Positions 1,796 through 25,606 of a stretch of DNA of 31,381 nt are shown in pieces (the first letter of the stretch is position 1; each line of letters opens with the position of its first letter). The DNA comes from Pilasporangium apinafurcum (taxonomy: Eukaryota; Oomycota; Peronosporomycetes; Pythiales; Pythiaceae). Location: contig BCKE01000084.1 of NCBI GenBank assembly GCA_001600495.1, forward strand, positions 84,189 to 115,569, in the 5' to 3' direction. Below the pieces are notes generated by a model that worked only from the letters and a program-made list of their open reading frames with translations, searched no databases and was not told the origin of the DNA. A program made the translations under genes and the position numbers.

Positions 1796-4045
1796 ATGAC
1801 GCTCTCGCTACGGAAGTTCATCATTCTTGCGTTTAACCTCGTGTCGACTTTCCTTGCACTCTTGACGGGATTATAAGAGAACCCTGTGATCGTGTATATT
1901 ACGGGCAAATACACCAACACCCGCTCGCGCTTGTAACAGAGCGCGATTAACTATGACATCGTACGGATGGACCAGCTTCGTCCAGAAACGCTAGTCGACT
2001 TAACCGATCCCGGTAAGAACTATCGCTTCTTTCCAGCACCCGCTCGCAACACTGCTAACATCGGCAATGATTAGAGCACATGTGTGCGGGTAAACTCGAT
2101 CAACGCCACAATGCTCAACATCTACTTCGACGATTTATGGGGAAAGGACCACGACGCACGCAGATCGATCTCTATAGCATCTTGGCTCCGAGTGGCTAGG
2201 TTATCAACTTTCTTACAGAATGGGTCACTACCTGCATTGAGATGCACGGAAATGCCTCGCAATGTCATTGCCACATCTTGGATAAGTTTGATGATTTGCA
2301 TGAGAATCGGCTGATTCAAGTAGGAGTCGCAGAGGCGTATGGAAAATCTGGGGCTTTTTTCCTGAGATGTCTCGGCCGGTCAGCGGAATCGTTCTCGTAC
2401 ATGATTGACACGATTCAGCTGATGAATTACTGAGCTGGTGGGCGGAAACTTTATCTAGTTCTTTGCAAGTCATTGTATCGCCAACTACGCTATACGAACT
2501 GAGGACTGGAAGTGGAGTCTCTTTGAGGTTCAATCGGTTGATAACTATGCTGAGGTCGTTGACGCCATCGACAATGACGGTTGGCTTACGTTAGGGGTGT
2601 CGACCGTTTATCGTATTGCCTCGATGGGCCTAATTTCGCATGGCATTTTTGCGGCTATTATGCAAACTAAAACTATGCCTTACGTGCCGAAAATTCAACG
2701 CTTCATCAGCGACCACAAGTATTTGCGGCACATTCTACTGACCATGTTCTTTCCTTCAGTGTTTCCTGTGGAAGGCACAACTGTCGTGCATTTCAAAGGC
2801 TCGGTACTCATGGAGTCGGATCTTTGGATGAACCACTGGCTGTATCTGCTGCTTTCGATCATCGATGGGCTAGTCAACATGCAGTTGACCTACGTCATCT
2901 TCCAAACCGGAACCTGGATGCTGAGTCTGAAGGTCAACTTTGAGAATTTCATCTTCATGGCATCAGCGCTGACCAAAATGACATGGCTTATGTGCTTTGT
3001 GCATATGATTATCCGCTGGATGCTCAAGGTCATTGTGCGTGGTATGAAGTCGCTCAAGATCGTGCGACCAGTGCTACGCGAGAAACTCGAGTGGTGCGTC
3101 GACATGTCGGCCATTTTCTTGAGCTACAAAGTTTACAGCCTCTTACACTTTGTGCTGCTTTACCTGCAGCTGTTAACACACAATAACACGACGTTTCAGG
3201 TGCGGTAGGTGACGCTGAAAAGAGGCGTTTACGGTGGCGCGCCCAATATTGTGGAATTTTGGAGTAGTAAACTCACCTGCGATTTCTTTATGCTGCTTTC
3301 GATCATGACACTCATTGGGTACATATTTGGGACGTTAATGCTCTTCATGAAATACAAATACGTCGCCAACAACAGTGCCATGCAAATCCTCCAACGACGC
3401 TACGTCTTCGTTGGTTGGGATGCGTTGGTGGCGATGGAAGTGTTAGGCATCGATCCACTGTCTCCAAAAGGAGTCGTCGACGACATTGCAGTCACTAATT
3501 GCTCGCTGGGCTCGTTGTTACGAGATATGTATATCTCTGATCCAAGTGGACTCGTAACGCTGATAGGGGACTACCTCTTCGTCGGCAACGGCTTCTCCAA
3601 GGAGCCAATTTTGTTCCGATATCCTGTGAAGAAGGCAATCACAATGGGATTATGTGCCAGTTCCAGAGCCACGGATAATCGATCGTAGCAGGCAGCAACG
3701 ACACCCTCAGCACAGATGTCCAAAGTAGCGGACGTGCACCTGTGCTCATCGACAGATGAACCACAATCTTTACTCTCCGTTTGTGATCAAACGGCAGGTG
3801 AGAACACTCTTGAGTCACTGCAAGGGGACCAGAGCAGCAAAAGCATATTTGAACGGTATCTACAAGTCTTTACCGATGGTCGCTTTGGCCATTTACTGTT
3901 TGTAGATCAAAACAAGCCGGGTAACGTGCAGAAGAACGCCAACACGGGGCTGAGGGAGCACGCTGTGAGGGATGCGTTGTCATACATTTCTATCTTGGAT
4001 ACCAAACCGCTCTTGAGCAATGACAAGAAACTTCGCTTAAAGTAA
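1796..4045 (+). pseudogene. Pseudogene, first copy of the tandem multi-pass membrane-protein family
   Basis: The sequence aligns end to end with the intact genes at 5468-7693 and 8482-10761. It starts with ATG at 1796 (MTLSLRKFIILAFNL) and ends at TAA 4043-4045, a span of 749 codons plus the stop, so family length is kept. It is broken by in-frame stops at 1874, 1934, 2072, 2456, 3206 and 3686, and by two more (2197, 2431) inside a segment shifted by a 1-base deletion near 2140-2180 and restored by a 1-base insertion near 2440-2455. Several stops replace family Gln, Arg or Trp codons. The second ectodomain cysteine is also lost. The 3' half is better kept, with open stretches of 203, 159 and 109 codons. 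An expressed full-length product is very unlikely. Confidence 0.93.
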
Positions 4046-4509
4046 ATAGGAAACCATGCAAGTTTTGTACTTGCTATCAATCCCTTCGCTTTTGTGCTTC
4101 TGTCCGTGTCTCTAAGGAACCAGTAATGATGTACTTAGCAATATACAACCTCGATAGACGAACTGCTGACACAGTACACTTTGACAACCGTGGTATGCGA
4201 ATATGTAATAATATTGAAATCTCTTACACTTCAAGAATCATATGAGCTATCGAAATGTCGATACTCCAGAGAGGACCTCCTGTTTTTTGTTCAGGTCCAA
4301 CTCAACAGCAAAAGCTAGCTAAGACTAGATAACCGTAGAGTAGCCATCTTCGACAACTGGACTCATCGGGTCCAGGAGAGTAGATCTTCATTCTTAAGAA
4401 AGATGCTTCTAGTGTGATACTTACCTTCCTTTCACATTGATACTACCACGCCACACTTTCTGGACAGTTGCTTTGACTCTCCACGCACTCGATTTCCTTA
4501 CATCCATTC
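4046..4509. other. Intergenic spacer after the pseudogene
   Basis: About 460 bases with no open frame of note, no RNA gene and no repeat that I can see. Confidence 0.5.
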
Positions 4510-5254
4510 TTGAAAAGAAGAATGGCGCCGAAAAGAGTTCATTGCGAAGAATTTGAAACGAGTTTCTACTTTATCGATAGGGATTGTTTTGTTTCAAAAA
4601 ACGCGTCAAAATGTATCCTAGAGATAGGAGAAATGGGAGAAAGGTCTTTAAGGTTTCATTACGTGCTGTGCTGCAGCAGCATATTGATGGTGCTAGAGCG
4701 CATGGATAATGACCCTTGGTCTACCTGGAATGACTACTTCCACCAATTTCAACTTCAAACAATGCCATTTAGAACTCAATTTTTCATCGAAATTAGAGTA
4801 TACCTTCCTACGGTTGCTGTAAGACGTATGGCGCGCGAATATCGTTGATATTTCCGAATTTATAGTAGTTCGTGCTCATACCATGCAGCTACTAGACCTC
4901 ACAATACAAGGCATCCGTCAGACCAGCTCTAGAGGATTTGACAAAGTCATACAGGAATACATTCTATTGAATGGATTTGTGCTGAAGCCATCCAAAAAGA
5001 CCGAGACCTCCATTATCTTTCAGTTGCGTGTCTGTGTTGAGTGTGTCGTAACTGGATTTGCTTTAAAAGCCAATCTTGTCGAAAAGTCTACTTCTACGTG
5101 CAGCTGTCATGTAAAAGACAAAGGCACCAAACATATGAAGGTTCATAATGTTTCTTCAGAAAAGACCCACACTGAATGCGATCGAAAGAAGGCCCACGAA
5201 GCAGAATGTGATAGGTCGATCAAGTTTTTAATGTTCAAAGAAGACTTGAGCTGA
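4510..5254 (+). pseudogene. Probable frameshifted gene relic, unrecognised
   Basis: Two open frames follow each other: 4510-4848 (112 codons) and 4883-5254 (123 codons). The second frame is already open before its ATG (reading NIVDISEFIVVRAHT), so the two look like halves of one coding sequence split by a +1 shift between about 4820 and 4848. The first half carries GEMGERSLRFHYVL; the second carries GFDKVIQEYILLNGFVLKPS. The joined architecture faintly resembles the START-like proteins that are common in oomycetes, but no diagnostic residue supports that. It sits between two copies of the membrane-protein family and does not resemble them. A two-exon gene is possible but no clear splice pair is seen. 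Confidence 0.3.
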
Positions 5255-5425
5255 TGTGTCCATTTCTCGAAACGCTTAGACTGTACACAACAACTTACCA
5301 TTTAGGCTAAGAGTGTAATGGATTCTTGCGAGACGTCGCTTTCCTCGTCGTTTCATAACAGGTATGTATGTGTGCCGCAAGTCGTTGATTCACCAAACGA
5401 CACCGCGTTTACGGTTCTGTTGGCT

Positions 5426-5433
5426 TATAAAAA
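5426..5433 (+). promoter_or_regulatory. TATA-like element upstream of the second family copy
   Basis: TATAAAAA lies about 35 bases upstream of the ATG at 5468, the only such motif close to this gene. It may be a core promoter element. Oomycete promoters often lack TATA and use an initiator, and the same bases could instead lie in a short 5' intron, so this is weak. Confidence 0.25.
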
Positions 5434-5467
5434 TCAATAAAGCTGCAAGAAACAAGAAAAGCTCACA

Positions 5468-7693
5468 ATGAGGTTCTCTGTGCGAAGAATCCTCATCCTG
5501 GCCTTTAATCTCACGTCCACATTTCTCACGCTTTTTACGGGGTTGCGTGAAAACCCATTGGTCGTGTATGTCACAGGCAAGTACGATAGTCTACGCTCTC
5601 GGTTAATCCAGGGCGCCATCAACTACGACACCATTCGCTCGGATTTGATGCGCCCAGGGATGCTTGTTGATTTGGCTGAAGTTGGCAGAAACTATCGCTT
5701 TTTCTCCGCTCCTACAAGACGCTTTAGTAACATGGGTGAAGACCAAAACGTGTGTCTGCGTGTCAACTCGATCAATTCTTCGATTATCAATGTCTACTTC
5801 GATGATTTCTGGGGGAAAGGGCCACGACGAACGCAAATTAAATTGTATAGCATCTCGCCACCTTCTTGTGATATCGTCAACCTCGATCCAGAGTGGATGA
5901 CGAATTGTGTAGAGATTCACGGCGGCTCCCCACAATGCCATCACTACATTTTTGACAACTTTGAAGACCTGCGCGAGAATCGGTTGGCACAAACCAGCAT
6001 CTTGGCTGATTTTGGGAAACCTGGTTTGCCATTTCTCAAGTGCATTGGGCGACCAGAGAAGCCATTTTCGTTCATTACCGACATGATCCAATTTCAAAAC
6101 TACTGGGCTGGAGGAGGTGAATTCATCCAGCTCTTCGCAAGTCAGTGTATTGCACGGCCGTTGATTAGAACAGATGATTGGAAGTACAGTCTCTTCCAGG
6201 TGGAGGCAATGAATGATGAATCTATAGTTGTGAACGCCATTGAGAGCAACAGCTGGCTCGGTGTCGTTATCACAGGTCTCTATGGCGTCGTATCCATAGC
6301 GTTAATCGTGCATGGCATCTTCGCGGCGATCACGCAGACGAAAGCTGTGATGTATGTACCTAACTCTATGCGCTTCATCAAAGACCAAAAGTACTTGCGC
6401 TATCTCCTGCCAACTATGTTCATTCCCACTACCTTCCCCGTCGAAGATTCCACCGTCATTCAATTCAAAGGTTCGGTGCTCATGGGCTCGGATCTCTGGA
6501 TGAATCATTGGCTGTACCTGACCACTAGCATCTTTGATGCCATCTTCAACATCGAGCTCACTTACGTCACGTTTCAAACGGGTACATATATGCTCAGTAT
6601 GCACGTCAATTTCGAGAATTTTATCTTCACAGCTTCAGCGATGACCAAGATGACGTGGTTTATGTGCTTCACTCACACGCTCATTCGCTGGATGATGAAG
6701 ATCGTAGTGCAAGGACTCAAGTCACTTCGTATAATCCGTCCCGGGCTTCGTGAACAAATGGATTGGTACATCGATGCCTCGACAGTATTTTTGAGCTATA
6801 AAGTCTACAGCATTATGCTGTTCGTGTTGCTCTACTTCCTGCTGGTTGTTCACGGCAACACCACTTTCCAGGTGCGGCAAGTGCCTGCCAAAAAAGGCGT
6901 CTTTGGTGGTGCTCCCAATCTCGCCAAATTTTGGGGCAGCGAACTCACGTGTGATTTCTTCACGATACTTTCCATCATGTTGCTCATCGGGTATACTGTC
7001 GGAACGTTGCTGTTATTCACAAAATACAAATATGTGACCAATAACAGCATCATTAAACTCCTGCAACAGCGATATATTTTTGTGGGGTGGGATGCACTGG
7101 TGGCGATGGAAGCGTTGGGTATCGATCCAATGATACCAGATCGAGTGATCGATGGTGTTGCGTTGACCAATTGTTCGATTGGCTCGTTGATACGAGAGAT
7201 GTACATCTCCGGTCCAAGTGGCTTGGTGACGCTTGCCGGTGATTATCTCTTTGAGAGAAACGGGTTCTCCAAAGAACCTGTGCTATTCCGCTACCCTGTG
7301 AAGAAAGCCATTGCGATGGGGCTCTGCTATAGTACCAGAGACGGACGCTCCACCATCTCCTCCAAAATCGGCGTGCAGTTCTCAAAGACGGCAGCTTCCT
7401 ACATGAAAACGACCAGTGTTCCGTCCGTGACTGAGGGTGCGGAAGAAGCATTGAAGCAACAAACTAAAACATCTCAAGGTACCAACAAAAGCATCTTCGA
7501 GCGGGTGCTACAGGTCTTTACTCACGGTCGGTATGGGCAGATGCTACTGATCGATGACCAGGAACCGGGGAAACTGCAGAAGAATGCCGAGACGGGGCTC
7601 ACTGAGTACGTCGTACAGGATGCACTGTCCTTCATTGGTATCTTGGACATCAGACCGTTGCTCGCGAATGAAAAGAAACTCCGTATTAAGTAG
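5468..7693 (+). CDS. Multi-pass membrane protein of an unrecognised tandem family, copy 2 (741 aa)
   Basis: An intact single-exon gene. Residues ~6-26 form a membrane anchor or signal anchor (ILILAFNLTSTFLTLFTG). Residues ~30-255 form a probable ectodomain with cysteines at 96, 134, 147, 157, 192 and 227. Hydrophobic segments follow at about 263-287, 310-325, 341-369, 383-407, 438-462 and 493-518, giving about seven membrane passes. The C-terminal ~220 residues are soluble and include GWDALVAMEALGIDP, SGPSGLVTLAGDYLFE and a conserved terminal block ending LDIRPLLANEKKLRIK. It is collinear without gaps with copy 3 up to residue ~620. Function is unknown; a surface receptor, channel or transporter are all possible. 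The ATG at 5468 matches the start in the other copies. Confidence 0.9.
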   Translation: MRFSVRRILILAFNLTSTFLTLFTGLRENPLVVYVTGKYDSLRSRLIQGAINYDTIRSDLMRPGMLVDLAEVGRNYRFFSAPTRRFSNMGEDQNVCLRVNSINSSIINVYFDDFWGKGPRRTQIKLYSISPPSCDIVNLDPEWMTNCVEIHGGSPQCHHYIFDNFEDLRENRLAQTSILADFGKPGLPFLKCIGRPEKPFSFITDMIQFQNYWAGGGEFIQLFASQCIARPLIRTDDWKYSLFQVEAMNDESIVVNAIESNSWLGVVITGLYGVVSIALIVHGIFAAITQTKAVMYVPNSMRFIKDQKYLRYLLPTMFIPTTFPVEDSTVIQFKGSVLMGSDLWMNHWLYLTTSIFDAIFNIELTYVTFQTGTYMLSMHVNFENFIFTASAMTKMTWFMCFTHTLIRWMMKIVVQGLKSLRIIRPGLREQMDWYIDASTVFLSYKVYSIMLFVLLYFLLVVHGNTTFQVRQVPAKKGVFGGAPNLAKFWGSELTCDFFTILSIMLLIGYTVGTLLLFTKYKYVTNNSIIKLLQQRYIFVGWDALVAMEALGIDPMIPDRVIDGVALTNCSIGSLIREMYISGPSGLVTLAGDYLFERNGFSKEPVLFRYPVKKAIAMGLCYSTRDGRSTISSKIGVQFSKTAASYMKTTSVPSVTEGAEEALKQQTKTSQGTNKSIFERVLQVFTHGRYGQMLLIDDQEPGKLQKNAETGLTEYVVQDALSFIGILDIRPLLANEKKLRIK

Positions 7694-8481
7694 GTAGTAA
7701 TTAAACTTAAAACTAGTCCTCCATTGCTCGACCTTCATCGCATGTTTCACTATATCTACTTATGCGTGGCAGTGAGATTCACAACCGTTTTCGAGACATA
7801 TATCCATCAGAACGATACCAGAAGCCTGGATAACTGTATGCAGTTGTAGACATTCCTGTCAGTCAGGACTACAACGCGATATTTCAGCTCCACATAGAAT
7901 CAGAAATATTGGGAAACAACTAACAACAAAAAGCACCCACTTTCAGGGTAGAACTTCGTTATTCTCACAATAGCGCGACATTGCCGACATTAAAGACTTC
8001 TGAAGTGTTGAAAAAAAGAGAAAAAAAACGTTTGAGTGTTGTTTTCTTGGGACATTTGAGCCCCAGTTGAATGATGTTTTTGATCGTCATGCTTCCCAAT
8101 CAGTGCGTCAGATGAGCGAAGTATGGACTCAGAAAGGATAGTTAGTCCGACGTCGAAAGACAAATATTTATAGTCGAAACTGTAAGCACACATCATGTTT
8201 GGGTCTTATGCAAGTATCCGTCTGTCAGTTTCTTCAGATCCGCGTGTGGTCCCATTCGGGCAGAAATAGAAAGCCATTTTGGAACAAATCGACATCACCG
8301 TATCTTTGTTTTCTGGAAAAGACCATGTACCAATTTACCACATAAACTTTGTCTTGGTCTTAAAATACCCATCCGTTAAAAAAAAGATATCAAGTACAGA
8401 CAATTTATGATCGAGGTACATGTGCCCATTGCCACCAGACCATTGTGGGATTGTTGGTAGCCAGAGAAAGAAACGGGCAAC
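7694..8481. other. Spacer between copies 2 and 3
   Basis: About 790 bases without a supported gene. It does not visibly repeat the spacer upstream of copy 2, so duplication of the array did not leave an obvious repeated spacer. The promoter of copy 3 must lie here; no TATA box is evident near 8482. Confidence 0.5.
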
Positions 8482-10761
8482 ATGGGGGTACCTGTGCGCA
8501 AGATTATCGTCTTGGCCTTCAACATCCTCTCGATGTTCCTTACACTTTTCACGGGGCTGCGTGAGAACCCGCTCATCGTGTACACAACCGGCAAGTACGA
8601 GAATATCCGCTCTCGGTTGATCGAAGGTGCCATCAGCTACGACATCGTCCCCATGGAATTGCTGCGGCCAGGTATGCTCGTCAATCTCTCGTATGTCGGC
8701 GAGCACTACCGCTTCTTCTCCAACCCCACACGCAGGTTCGCTAATGTCGGTGAAGATCGTAGCACGTGCATGCGCGTAAACTCGGTCAACGGTTCGGTCA
8801 TGAACATTTACTTTGACGATTTCTGGGGCAAAGGTCCAAGAAGAACACAACTCAACCTCTACAGCATCTCAGCTCCTTCTTGCAAAGTGATCAATTTCTT
8901 ACCAGAGTGGGTCCAAGACTGTCGCGCCACACACATAAACCCAACCGAGTGTCATCGATATATTCTGGAAAACTTTGATGAGTTATTGGACGACCCAACC
9001 ATCCAAACTGGGATTGTCTCGGATAATGGTAAGATAGGCCACCCATTCCTTAAGTGTGCACGACGACCAGAAGAGAATTTCAACTATATCACCGATATGA
9101 TGATCCACTACAACTACTGGTCTGGTGGCAAGCGGTACGTGCAGTTCCACACGAGTGACTGCCAGGCAAAGCATATCATGAGGGACCCCAAGTGGCAATG
9201 GAGTTTGTTTGAGGCTGAATCCTTGACGGACAGTGCTGTCGTCATCGGTGCGATTGATAACGAAGGTTGGATCAAGGTGATTGTGACTTTTCTCTATGGA
9301 ATTGTCTCAATTGGTTTGATCCTATACGGCCTCTTCTCCGTGATTGCACAGACCAAAATCGTACTCTACGCACCAAAGGCACAGCGGTTCATCAAAGATC
9401 AAAAGTATTTCCGCTATATCTTGCCGATGATCGCAATTCCAACAATGTTCCCAGTCGATGGAACAAACGTCATTCACTTTAAGGGCTCAATACTGATGGG
9501 CTCGGACGTTTGGATGAACCACTGGCTGTTCATCTGGTTAAGTATTGCCGATTCGGTCGTGAACGTGAAATTGACGTATGTGATTTTTCAGACTGGTACG
9601 TGGATGCTCGCGCAGAAGATCAATTTTGAAAATTTCATCTTCATGGCTTCGGCGCTCACCAAGATGACGTGGCTCATGTGCTTTATCCACACGGTCATTC
9701 GTCTGCTCATGAAGGTCACAGTGCGTGCGTTAAAGGCCCTCAAGATCGTCGAGCCAGCGTTTCGCGAGAAACTGGATTGGTACGTCGACGCGTCCGCCCT
9801 TTTCCTCAGTTTTAAAGTGTACAGCTCGATGCTCTTCGTGCTGCTCTACCTCCTCGTGCTCGTAAATGGCAACACCACATTCATGGTGCGGCAGGTACCG
9901 GCAAAGCGAGGTGTCTTTGGCGGAGCCCCGAATCTTGCCAAGTTCTGGGGTAGTGAGCTCATGTGTGATTTCTTCGTGCTGCTTTCAATCCTGACCGTCC
10001 TTGGATTTATAGCCGGAACGCTCATATTGTTCACAAAATACAAGTACGTGGCGAGCAACAGTATCATCAAATTATTGCAGCGGCGGTACTTCTTTGTTGG
10101 TTGGGATCCATTAATCGCAATGGAGGCCCTCGGAATTGATCCAGTAGCTCCTAATGGCATTGTTGAAGAAGCGGCAGTTGCGAATTGTTCGGTTGGCTCT
10201 TTGCTGCGGCAAATGTATGTCTCCGGCCCAAGTGGACTCGTGACATTAGCAGGCGATTATCTTTTTGAGGATGGTGGTTTCTCAAAAGAGCCATTGCTAT
10301 TTCGATACCCAGTGAAGCGCGCGATTGCTATGGGACTTTGTCGCAGCTCACGTGCGACCGTTCAATCATACCAAGCTGGGGGTACGGTGGGGGTTCCAAA
10401 GAGTGCGCTCAACTACGTGCGGAATACTGAGCATGCATCAACCGCGACGGATTATTGCGAAGATCCACTTGGAAAATCCCAACCTGACACCACCAATAAT
10501 GAAGAAGGGAAGAAAAAAGAAGAGACAACAAACATCACCCAGCAACTAACGATGAAAAGTATTTTCAATCGCCAATTGCGATTGTTCTCCAATGGCGTGT
10601 TTGGCCACATGCTGCTGGTCGATGAAACGGAACCAGGTAAGTTGCAAAAAAATCCGCAGACAGCACTCATGGAGTATGTTGTGCGAGATGCGCTGTCGTA
10701 CATCGCTATCTTAGACATTAAACCACTGCTTGGCAATACTAAGAAACTCCGCATTAGATAG
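8482..10761 (+). CDS. Multi-pass membrane protein of an unrecognised tandem family, copy 3 (759 aa)
   Basis: An intact single-exon gene with the same layout as copy 2: N-terminal membrane segment at residues ~6-26, ectodomain with cysteines at 96, 134, 147, 157, 192 and 227, and hydrophobic segments at about 263-287, 310-325, 341-369, 383-407, 438-462 and 493-518. Near-invariant blocks include YFDDFWGKGPRRTQ, FKGSILMGSD, VNGNTTFMVRQVPAKRGVFG and GGFSKEPLLFRYPVKRAIAM. The region between residues ~620 and 690 differs in length and sequence from copy 2 and holds a Lys/Glu-rich patch (NNEEGKKKEETTN). The last ~65 residues are conserved again. There is an upstream in-frame stop near 8458, so the ATG at 8482 is the natural start unless the transcript is spliced 5'. 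Function is unknown. Confidence 0.9.
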   Translation: MGVPVRKIIVLAFNILSMFLTLFTGLRENPLIVYTTGKYENIRSRLIEGAISYDIVPMELLRPGMLVNLSYVGEHYRFFSNPTRRFANVGEDRSTCMRVNSVNGSVMNIYFDDFWGKGPRRTQLNLYSISAPSCKVINFLPEWVQDCRATHINPTECHRYILENFDELLDDPTIQTGIVSDNGKIGHPFLKCARRPEENFNYITDMMIHYNYWSGGKRYVQFHTSDCQAKHIMRDPKWQWSLFEAESLTDSAVVIGAIDNEGWIKVIVTFLYGIVSIGLILYGLFSVIAQTKIVLYAPKAQRFIKDQKYFRYILPMIAIPTMFPVDGTNVIHFKGSILMGSDVWMNHWLFIWLSIADSVVNVKLTYVIFQTGTWMLAQKINFENFIFMASALTKMTWLMCFIHTVIRLLMKVTVRALKALKIVEPAFREKLDWYVDASALFLSFKVYSSMLFVLLYLLVLVNGNTTFMVRQVPAKRGVFGGAPNLAKFWGSELMCDFFVLLSILTVLGFIAGTLILFTKYKYVASNSIIKLLQRRYFFVGWDPLIAMEALGIDPVAPNGIVEEAAVANCSVGSLLRQMYVSGPSGLVTLAGDYLFEDGGFSKEPLLFRYPVKRAIAMGLCRSSRATVQSYQAGGTVGVPKSALNYVRNTEHASTATDYCEDPLGKSQPDTTNNEEGKKKEETTNITQQLTMKSIFNRQLRLFSNGVFGHMLLVDETEPGKLQKNPQTALMEYVVRDALSYIAILDIKPLLGNTKKLRIR

Positions 10762-23980: not shown

Positions 23981-25606
23981 ATGCGTGTGAAGAAGTTAAA
24001 CACGAATAGGCGTCATAAAGCAGGGGAAGACGACGTGGTGGTGGCGGGGGAGAACGATCAGCAACAAAAGTGGGTTAGCCCAACCAAAGAGCAAGACGAT
24101 TTGACGAGTAGCTGTAGTACGGCGAGCAGCGGTGGAAGCAGTCCACGTGGGGAAGCACACGGCGTGGAGTTTGGTTCCAGCAGTCCGACCGATCCTAGTA
24201 GCGTGCTTCATCAAGTTCCGCTAAACCATCACTTCGCTGGCCATTCATCACAATCTCCTTCTAACCAAGAGCAATACACGCGCGGAGGTTCGAGTGCACC
24301 CGGAGGCGCATCTATTGTAAAGACTATGGCTCCAATGGTCATGTCAGCGAGAGATTCTGCTGGAAGAAGTGGAGTTCTTTCCTCTCCTTTCAACTCCAAG
24401 ACGACTTCTTCACCTTCATCCAGTTGGCGAAATCATGTGGGTGATTCTGTTCGTCAATCCATTCATGCAAAGATTGTGGAAACACTAAAGACACTGAAAC
24501 CAAATGCTCCAGAAAAAGTGTTGGAAAGGTTGCCTGGATTGGCCTATCGCATGGAGGAATCTCTATTTAAGATGGCCAAAAATCTGGACGAATATACTGA
24601 TCAGACAACGTTGCCTCAGAGACTCAATCTGATCCAAGAAAACAATGCCAAGCGATTACTTCAGCAGCATTCACCAGGGACAAAGCCCAAAGATACAGGT
24701 GCGAATGTTCCCAAACCACTCACGGAAGAGCAATCGCGCGTGGTATTTCACTGTTTGCAAACATGGCGTCAGAAATTGGTCAATATGTATGGGGTAGCTC
24801 CGTGGGAGATCCTGCCAAATCAGACCTTAGCAAAAGTTGCTGTCTATGTTCCGTCAACCGAACAGGAGCTTTCTATCTGTGGTGTTCATGATGAGCAACT
24901 GGCACGATTCGGTTCGTCGCTGTTGCAGGAGCTCCAACGTATTACTCAACGAAACACCCGGACGCCCATGGCTTCAGGATCTGTCTCCAAACGCGGCTTT
25001 ACTGCCGATAAAAACGTAAAAGGTGGTAGGAAAGCAGGCACTTCGGCCAAGAATGGTGATGCCAAAAAGCGCAAAACCAATGGGGAATATTCAAACAGCA
25101 ACTTGGCGGGCAACCCGCGCTTGGTTCCGGCTCCTCCAGCCAATTTTGCACAACCTCCAGGACATCCTGGTGGTGCAGCTTCGTTGCTGACGCCCTCACA
25201 GCTTCTGTTCCGTCCTGGCGGAATGGACACACTGCCTACATTGCTTCCATCAGCAACTTCTTCCACCAACAGTGGTAATAGTAAATCACCATTTGCATCA
25301 GCTAACGCAAGGCTATCCCCTGCAGCGCAGATCGTCCAACAACCATTCTTCTCCCGACTCCAGCAAAACTCACAGCAAGATGATCCAAGCAACAGTCAGG
25401 AGACTAACCACATGCATTTGCTGGCACAAGGTGTGGGTCATGTGAGCAAGCAACAACAAGACGCCAAGACGGTGGAAATGTACGAGAAGGAAATCCAAAC
25501 GTTACGATGGATGCTGCATCAATCCCAACAGGAGAAAACACAACTGGAGCTGGAAGTTCAGCGTCTGAGAAGTCAACTCACCAGGCACAATCCGAATGGG
25601 AACTAG
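23981..25606 (+). CDS. KIX and HRDC domain protein, probable transcription or DNA-associated factor (541 aa)
   Basis: Residues 1-145 are Ser/Gly/Gln-rich and probably disordered. A KIX-like three-helix domain covers ~149-215 (WRNHVGDSVRQSIHAKIVET, then PGLAYRMEESLFKMAKNLDE), similar to KIX_2 domains of MED15-type coactivators. An HRDC-like domain covers ~247-322 (VFHCLQTWRQKLVNMYGVAP, TLAKVAVYVPSTEQEL). HRDC domains normally accompany RecQ helicases or RNase D and contact nucleic acid or other proteins. A basic patch (KKRK, 362-365) may be a nuclear signal. The C-terminus (~494-535) is a coiled coil. No helicase or nuclease residues are present. There is an in-frame stop near 23896 and no other ATG before 23981. 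A TTTTTGCAG at 23964-23970 could be a splice acceptor, so an upstream exon is possible. Confidence 0.8.
   Translation: MRVKKLNTNRRHKAGEDDVVVAGENDQQQKWVSPTKEQDDLTSSCSTASSGGSSPRGEAHGVEFGSSSPTDPSSVLHQVPLNHHFAGHSSQSPSNQEQYTRGGSSAPGGASIVKTMAPMVMSARDSAGRSGVLSSPFNSKTTSSPSSSWRNHVGDSVRQSIHAKIVETLKTLKPNAPEKVLERLPGLAYRMEESLFKMAKNLDEYTDQTTLPQRLNLIQENNAKRLLQQHSPGTKPKDTGANVPKPLTEEQSRVVFHCLQTWRQKLVNMYGVAPWEILPNQTLAKVAVYVPSTEQELSICGVHDEQLARFGSSLLQELQRITQRNTRTPMASGSVSKRGFTADKNVKGGRKAGTSAKNGDAKKRKTNGEYSNSNLAGNPRLVPAPPANFAQPPGHPGGAASLLTPSQLLFRPGGMDTLPTLLPSATSSTNSGNSKSPFASANARLSPAAQIVQQPFFSRLQQNSQQDDPSNSQETNHMHLLAQGVGHVSKQQQDAKTVEMYEKEIQTLRWMLHQSQQEKTQLELEVQRLRSQLTRHNPNGN

Follow-up and report, generated by a model that had tools for sequence, protein, structure and literature searches.

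A tandem gene array encoding a family of probably six-pass membrane proteins in an oomycete genome

Results

The window, as we refer to the whole analysed stretch of 31,381 nucleotides (G000:C84:84189-115569), is part of a 36.5-Mb genome of 136 contigs. Elicitins mark oomycetes, and the 50 elicitin matches in this genome, compared with none in any of 14 control genomes, identify it as that of an oomycete. Region 1796-10761 of the window contains three collinear copies of one gene, all in the same direction. Copy 2 (5468..7693, + strand) and copy 3 (8482..10761, + strand) are intact, and each consists of a single open frame, encoding 741 aa and 759 aa, respectively. Their products are 61% identical and align without a gap over the first 649 columns; the E value of 0 between them in a search of their own genome excludes a chance likeness. 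Copy 1 (1796..4042, + strand), delimited by tblastn segments, is a dead copy (pseudogene). Comparison with copy 2 by tblastn divides it into three segments with two frame changes and eight stops in total (three in 1796-2146, two in 2134-2442, and three in 2441-4042), the middle segment lying in another frame; a single-frame reading against copy 3 gives 12 stops. These results confirm a preliminary description of this DNA, in which an oomycete-like genome, three collinear copies with one of them dead, and about 620 gap-free residues between copies 2 and 3 had been noticed.

Directly upstream, the start of the window is adjoined by an assembly gap (L014 1-5189) that spans at least 5189 N, so that the number of three copies is a lower bound and the array may extend in that direction. 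Apart from self matches and an inverted match of 24 bases inside one flank, a comparison of the intergenic regions between the copies revealed no homology, and a scan of the window with Rfam gave no match. Two open reading frames between copies 1 and 2 (4510-4848 and 4883-5254, both on the + strand) are without a Pfam match, and a search of the rest of the genome at E values up to 1 gave no relative for the second of them.

The protein of copy 3 starts with an N-terminal membrane segment (residues 8-27; 8503..8562, + strand; hydropathy), followed by an ectodomain of 234 residues (residues 28-261; 8563..9264, + strand), which agrees with the N-terminal segment and the ectodomain of about 235 residues described earlier. 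The membrane core (9265..10035, + strand), assigned by hydropathy with boundaries set by hand, comprises segments at residues 262-287, 345-369, 385-408, 438-463, and 492-518, and the C-terminal region (residues 519-759; 10036..10758, + strand) consists of a conserved part (519-624), a variable linker (625-692), and a conserved tail (693-759). At a mean hydropathy of 1.4, six segments are found in copy 3 after merging two overlapping stretches, and four in copy 2, in which the third and fourth segments pass only at 1.0. The threshold of 1.0 additionally admits weak stretches: one at 312-331, confined to copy 3, and two that both copies share, at about 536-561 and close to the C-terminus. We favour six membrane segments, namely one N-terminal and five further ones, rather than seven, although the number cannot be fixed by hydropathy alone. 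The earlier plan of membrane segments with an ectodomain is upheld, and the number of further segments, earlier given as about six, is in our judgement of the hydropathy five. With boundaries set by hand and for the favoured six-segment topology only, lysines and arginines flanking the segments number 15 inside vs. 7 outside in copy 3, and 14 vs. 5 in copy 2. The loop between segments 5 and 6 (residues 464-491, ...VRQVPAKRGVFGGAPN...; 9871..9954, + strand), of about 28 residues, is polar, conserved, and has a net charge of +4; its placement outside in the six-segment model runs against the positive-inside rule.

Protein searches of the own genome indicate six loci of the family in all, three of them in the window, a count that is a lower bound. 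A close paralog (C6:531785-534816) contains one N gap as well as isolated Ns at scattered positions. A diverged paralog (C28:18031-24412) is represented by two ends on either side of a gap of 5600 N, so that either one gene or two may be present. The last locus, on contig C39 (L012 4075-5648, - strand), is a heavily decayed relic with several stops, in which the motifs TKMT, KxYS, and RQVPAxRG are still recognisable, as is, in part, the loop that joins segments 5 and 6.

Six cysteines of the ectodomain occupy identical positions in both intact copies, and the C6 paralog has the four of them that its available sequence covers; copies 2 and 3 and the C6 paralog have all retained the sequon N103. 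Among columns with at least three sequences, in which the dead copy was counted as a row where present, invariant ones are the most frequent in segment 4 (17/24), the conserved C-terminal part (70/106), the loop between segments 5 and 6 (17/28), and the short loop between segments 3 and 4 (9/15), and the rarest in the linker (3/45). Segment 5 is middling (12/26), and the respective values are 6/20 for segment 2, 14/25 for segment 3, 14/27 for segment 6, and 38/66 for the tail. Conserved charged or polar residues also occur within segments 3 to 5, e.g., N361, K394, H403, and K445.

Copies 2 and 3 differ with a pN of 0.253 and a pS of 0.749, which indicates that synonymous sites are saturated and that purifying selection has acted on average. 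Their ectodomains are less conserved (126 of 231 residues identical) than their membrane cores (170 of 263), and in the ectodomain a pN of 0.296 and a pS of 0.766 indicate purifying selection averaged over the region. In a comparison of the core over 256 residues (250 comparable with C6), from which the C28 and C39 loci were left out, identity was 65.6-69.2% in all six pairs formed by copy 2, copy 3, the dead copy, and the C6 paralog, with 53-59% of third and 14-16% of second positions differing. The tandem copies therefore resemble one another no more than they resemble the C6 copy on another contig, and the nearly equal identities indicate that the duplications among these four loci are old and about equally deep. 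The coding pattern retained by the dead copy suggests that its death may have come late relative to its age. The family had been described as turning over; the dead copy and the C39 relic testify to loss, while the about equal and deep divergence of the four compared loci speaks against a fast turnover.

The preliminary description had found no family that could be named and had advised profile searches and a structure prediction. Neither Pfam nor NCBIfam gave a match for the whole proteins of copies 2 and 3. With nine family sequences (two whole proteins and seven pieces) and E values up to 10, Pfam returned only Guanylin (0.013) and DUF996 (1.7), each for one family member, although most matches with E values higher than about 0.1 are removed by the HMMER filters at this setting. 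A search of three proteins against PHROGs gave a single match at E 0.17 and named no family, and searches of the PDB by sequence and profile gave nothing better than E 0.33. None of these searches put a name to the family. No relatives were found in viral contigs, bacterial and archaeal genomes, or phage records, which by their descriptions are not collections of eukaryotic genomes, and in a literature search we recognised no publication dealing with this membrane family. Structure models were obtained with confidence too low for a fold to be read: the pLDDT was 31.6 for the full-length protein (two-row alignment) and 42.6 for the membrane core (three-row alignment), which in our opinion reflects the small number of relatives in the alignments. 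In the low-confidence core model, helices overlap the positions of the copy 3 core segments. A Foldseek search with this model gave no match at E ≤ 0.001 (best E 0.62), which we regard as uninformative.

Discussion

Results of our analysis point, as a reading that is plausible rather than probable, to a small and old family of paralogous oomycete membrane proteins, probably with six passes, that may work in sensing and transducing. The anatomy of these proteins, as deduced from hydropathy and charge, is probably that of an N-terminus inside, a first segment, an ectodomain of about 234 residues, five further segments, and a cytosolic C-terminus of about 240 residues. We infer that they are of the surface type, and a receptor role is possible. 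The best description is that of a surface sensor, possibly a channel, in which the ectodomain is placed as in polycystins and mucolipins, with no detectable relation to them. Such a protein would sit in the plasma membrane or in a vacuole-type membrane, where the ectodomain between segments 1 and 2 would bind an outside ligand or report on the lumen. The transducing part would comprise segments 3 to 6 and the basic, conserved loop that joins segments 5 and 6, and would act as a gated permeation path or as a conformational switch; the conserved C-terminal region could couple it to cytosolic partners. No functional signature was found in the family, and the evidence shows that it is unnamed in the searched libraries, not yet that it represents a new mechanism. 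Oomycetes, whose surface sensing is in our judgement poorly mapped, include destructive pathogens, and structural and functional work could sensibly be directed at an old, constrained, nameless family of membrane proteins that have an outside domain.

In polycystin and mucolipin channels of the TRP superfamily, six segments are arranged with a large ectodomain between the first and the second and with both ends in the cytosol. The segment count and ectodomain placement that we favour agree with this layout, which is why four of the PKD-type proteins behind the 15 PKD_channel matches (Pfam PF08016) in the own genome were chosen and aligned for a profile comparison. PKD-type channels of oomycetes (PKDRR) have been described (PMC7399828) and are, like the family studied here, oomycete membrane proteins. 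That the family is itself a divergent member of this cation-channel superfamily, with its ectodomain between S1 and S2, is nevertheless unlikely. None of the nine family sequences matched the PKD_channel profile at E values up to 10, within the limit set by the HMMER filters above about 0.1, and hhalign gave a probability of only 0.1% against the four proteins, with a thin profile (Neff 1.4). The C-terminus is different as well, and the short, polar loop with a net charge of +4 stands where those channels have their pore loop, which is usually unlike it; by eye, no pore helix or filter is recognisable in residues 464-491. The family works at most like polycystin and mucolipin channels. The idea of a novel class of ligand-gated six-pass channels or receptors that exists solely in oomycetes or stramenopiles, in which a polycystin-like plan was reached independently and the working part is the basic, highly conserved loop joining segments 5 and 6, has a similarly small chance of being correct.

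The conserved charged and polar residues of segments 3 to 5 would also suit a transporter, a scramblase, or a lipid-handling protein with the ectodomain as its regulator, but the segments are few and no transporter family was matched in Pfam or NCBIfam, which makes this explanation somewhat unlikely. A G-protein-coupled-type receptor with seven segments, an N-terminal ectodomain, and a signal anchor appears very unlikely. The long ectodomain and cytosolic tail would fit it, and the weak stretches at 312-331 of copy 3 and at about 536-561 of both copies could supply one more segment; both stretches, however, pass the loose threshold only, the former is absent in copy 2 and would, as a segment, be expected to place basic loops outside, and no GPCR family is among the Pfam matches of the nine sequences at E values up to 10. 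Least likely of all is a fast-evolving adhesion or host-contact surface family, even though the tandem copies, the loss of some members, and the lower conservation of the ectodomain than of the core are of the kind that it would predict. The ectodomain has on average been under purifying selection, and the Pfam scan of the nine sequences revealed no adhesion domain. The adhesion system considered in the preliminary description finds no evidence in the sequence. The reading as an old family of probable six-pass sensors is the one that we prefer.

Two further observations concern neighbouring genes. In the window, the open reading frame 23981-25606 (+ strand) combines KIX_2 and HRDC domains, a pairing that looks unusual. 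Beside the C6 paralog, three open reading frames (L013 882-1724 and 3002-3628, both on the - strand, and 3809-4324 on the + strand) are alike by eye and perhaps form another small local gene family.
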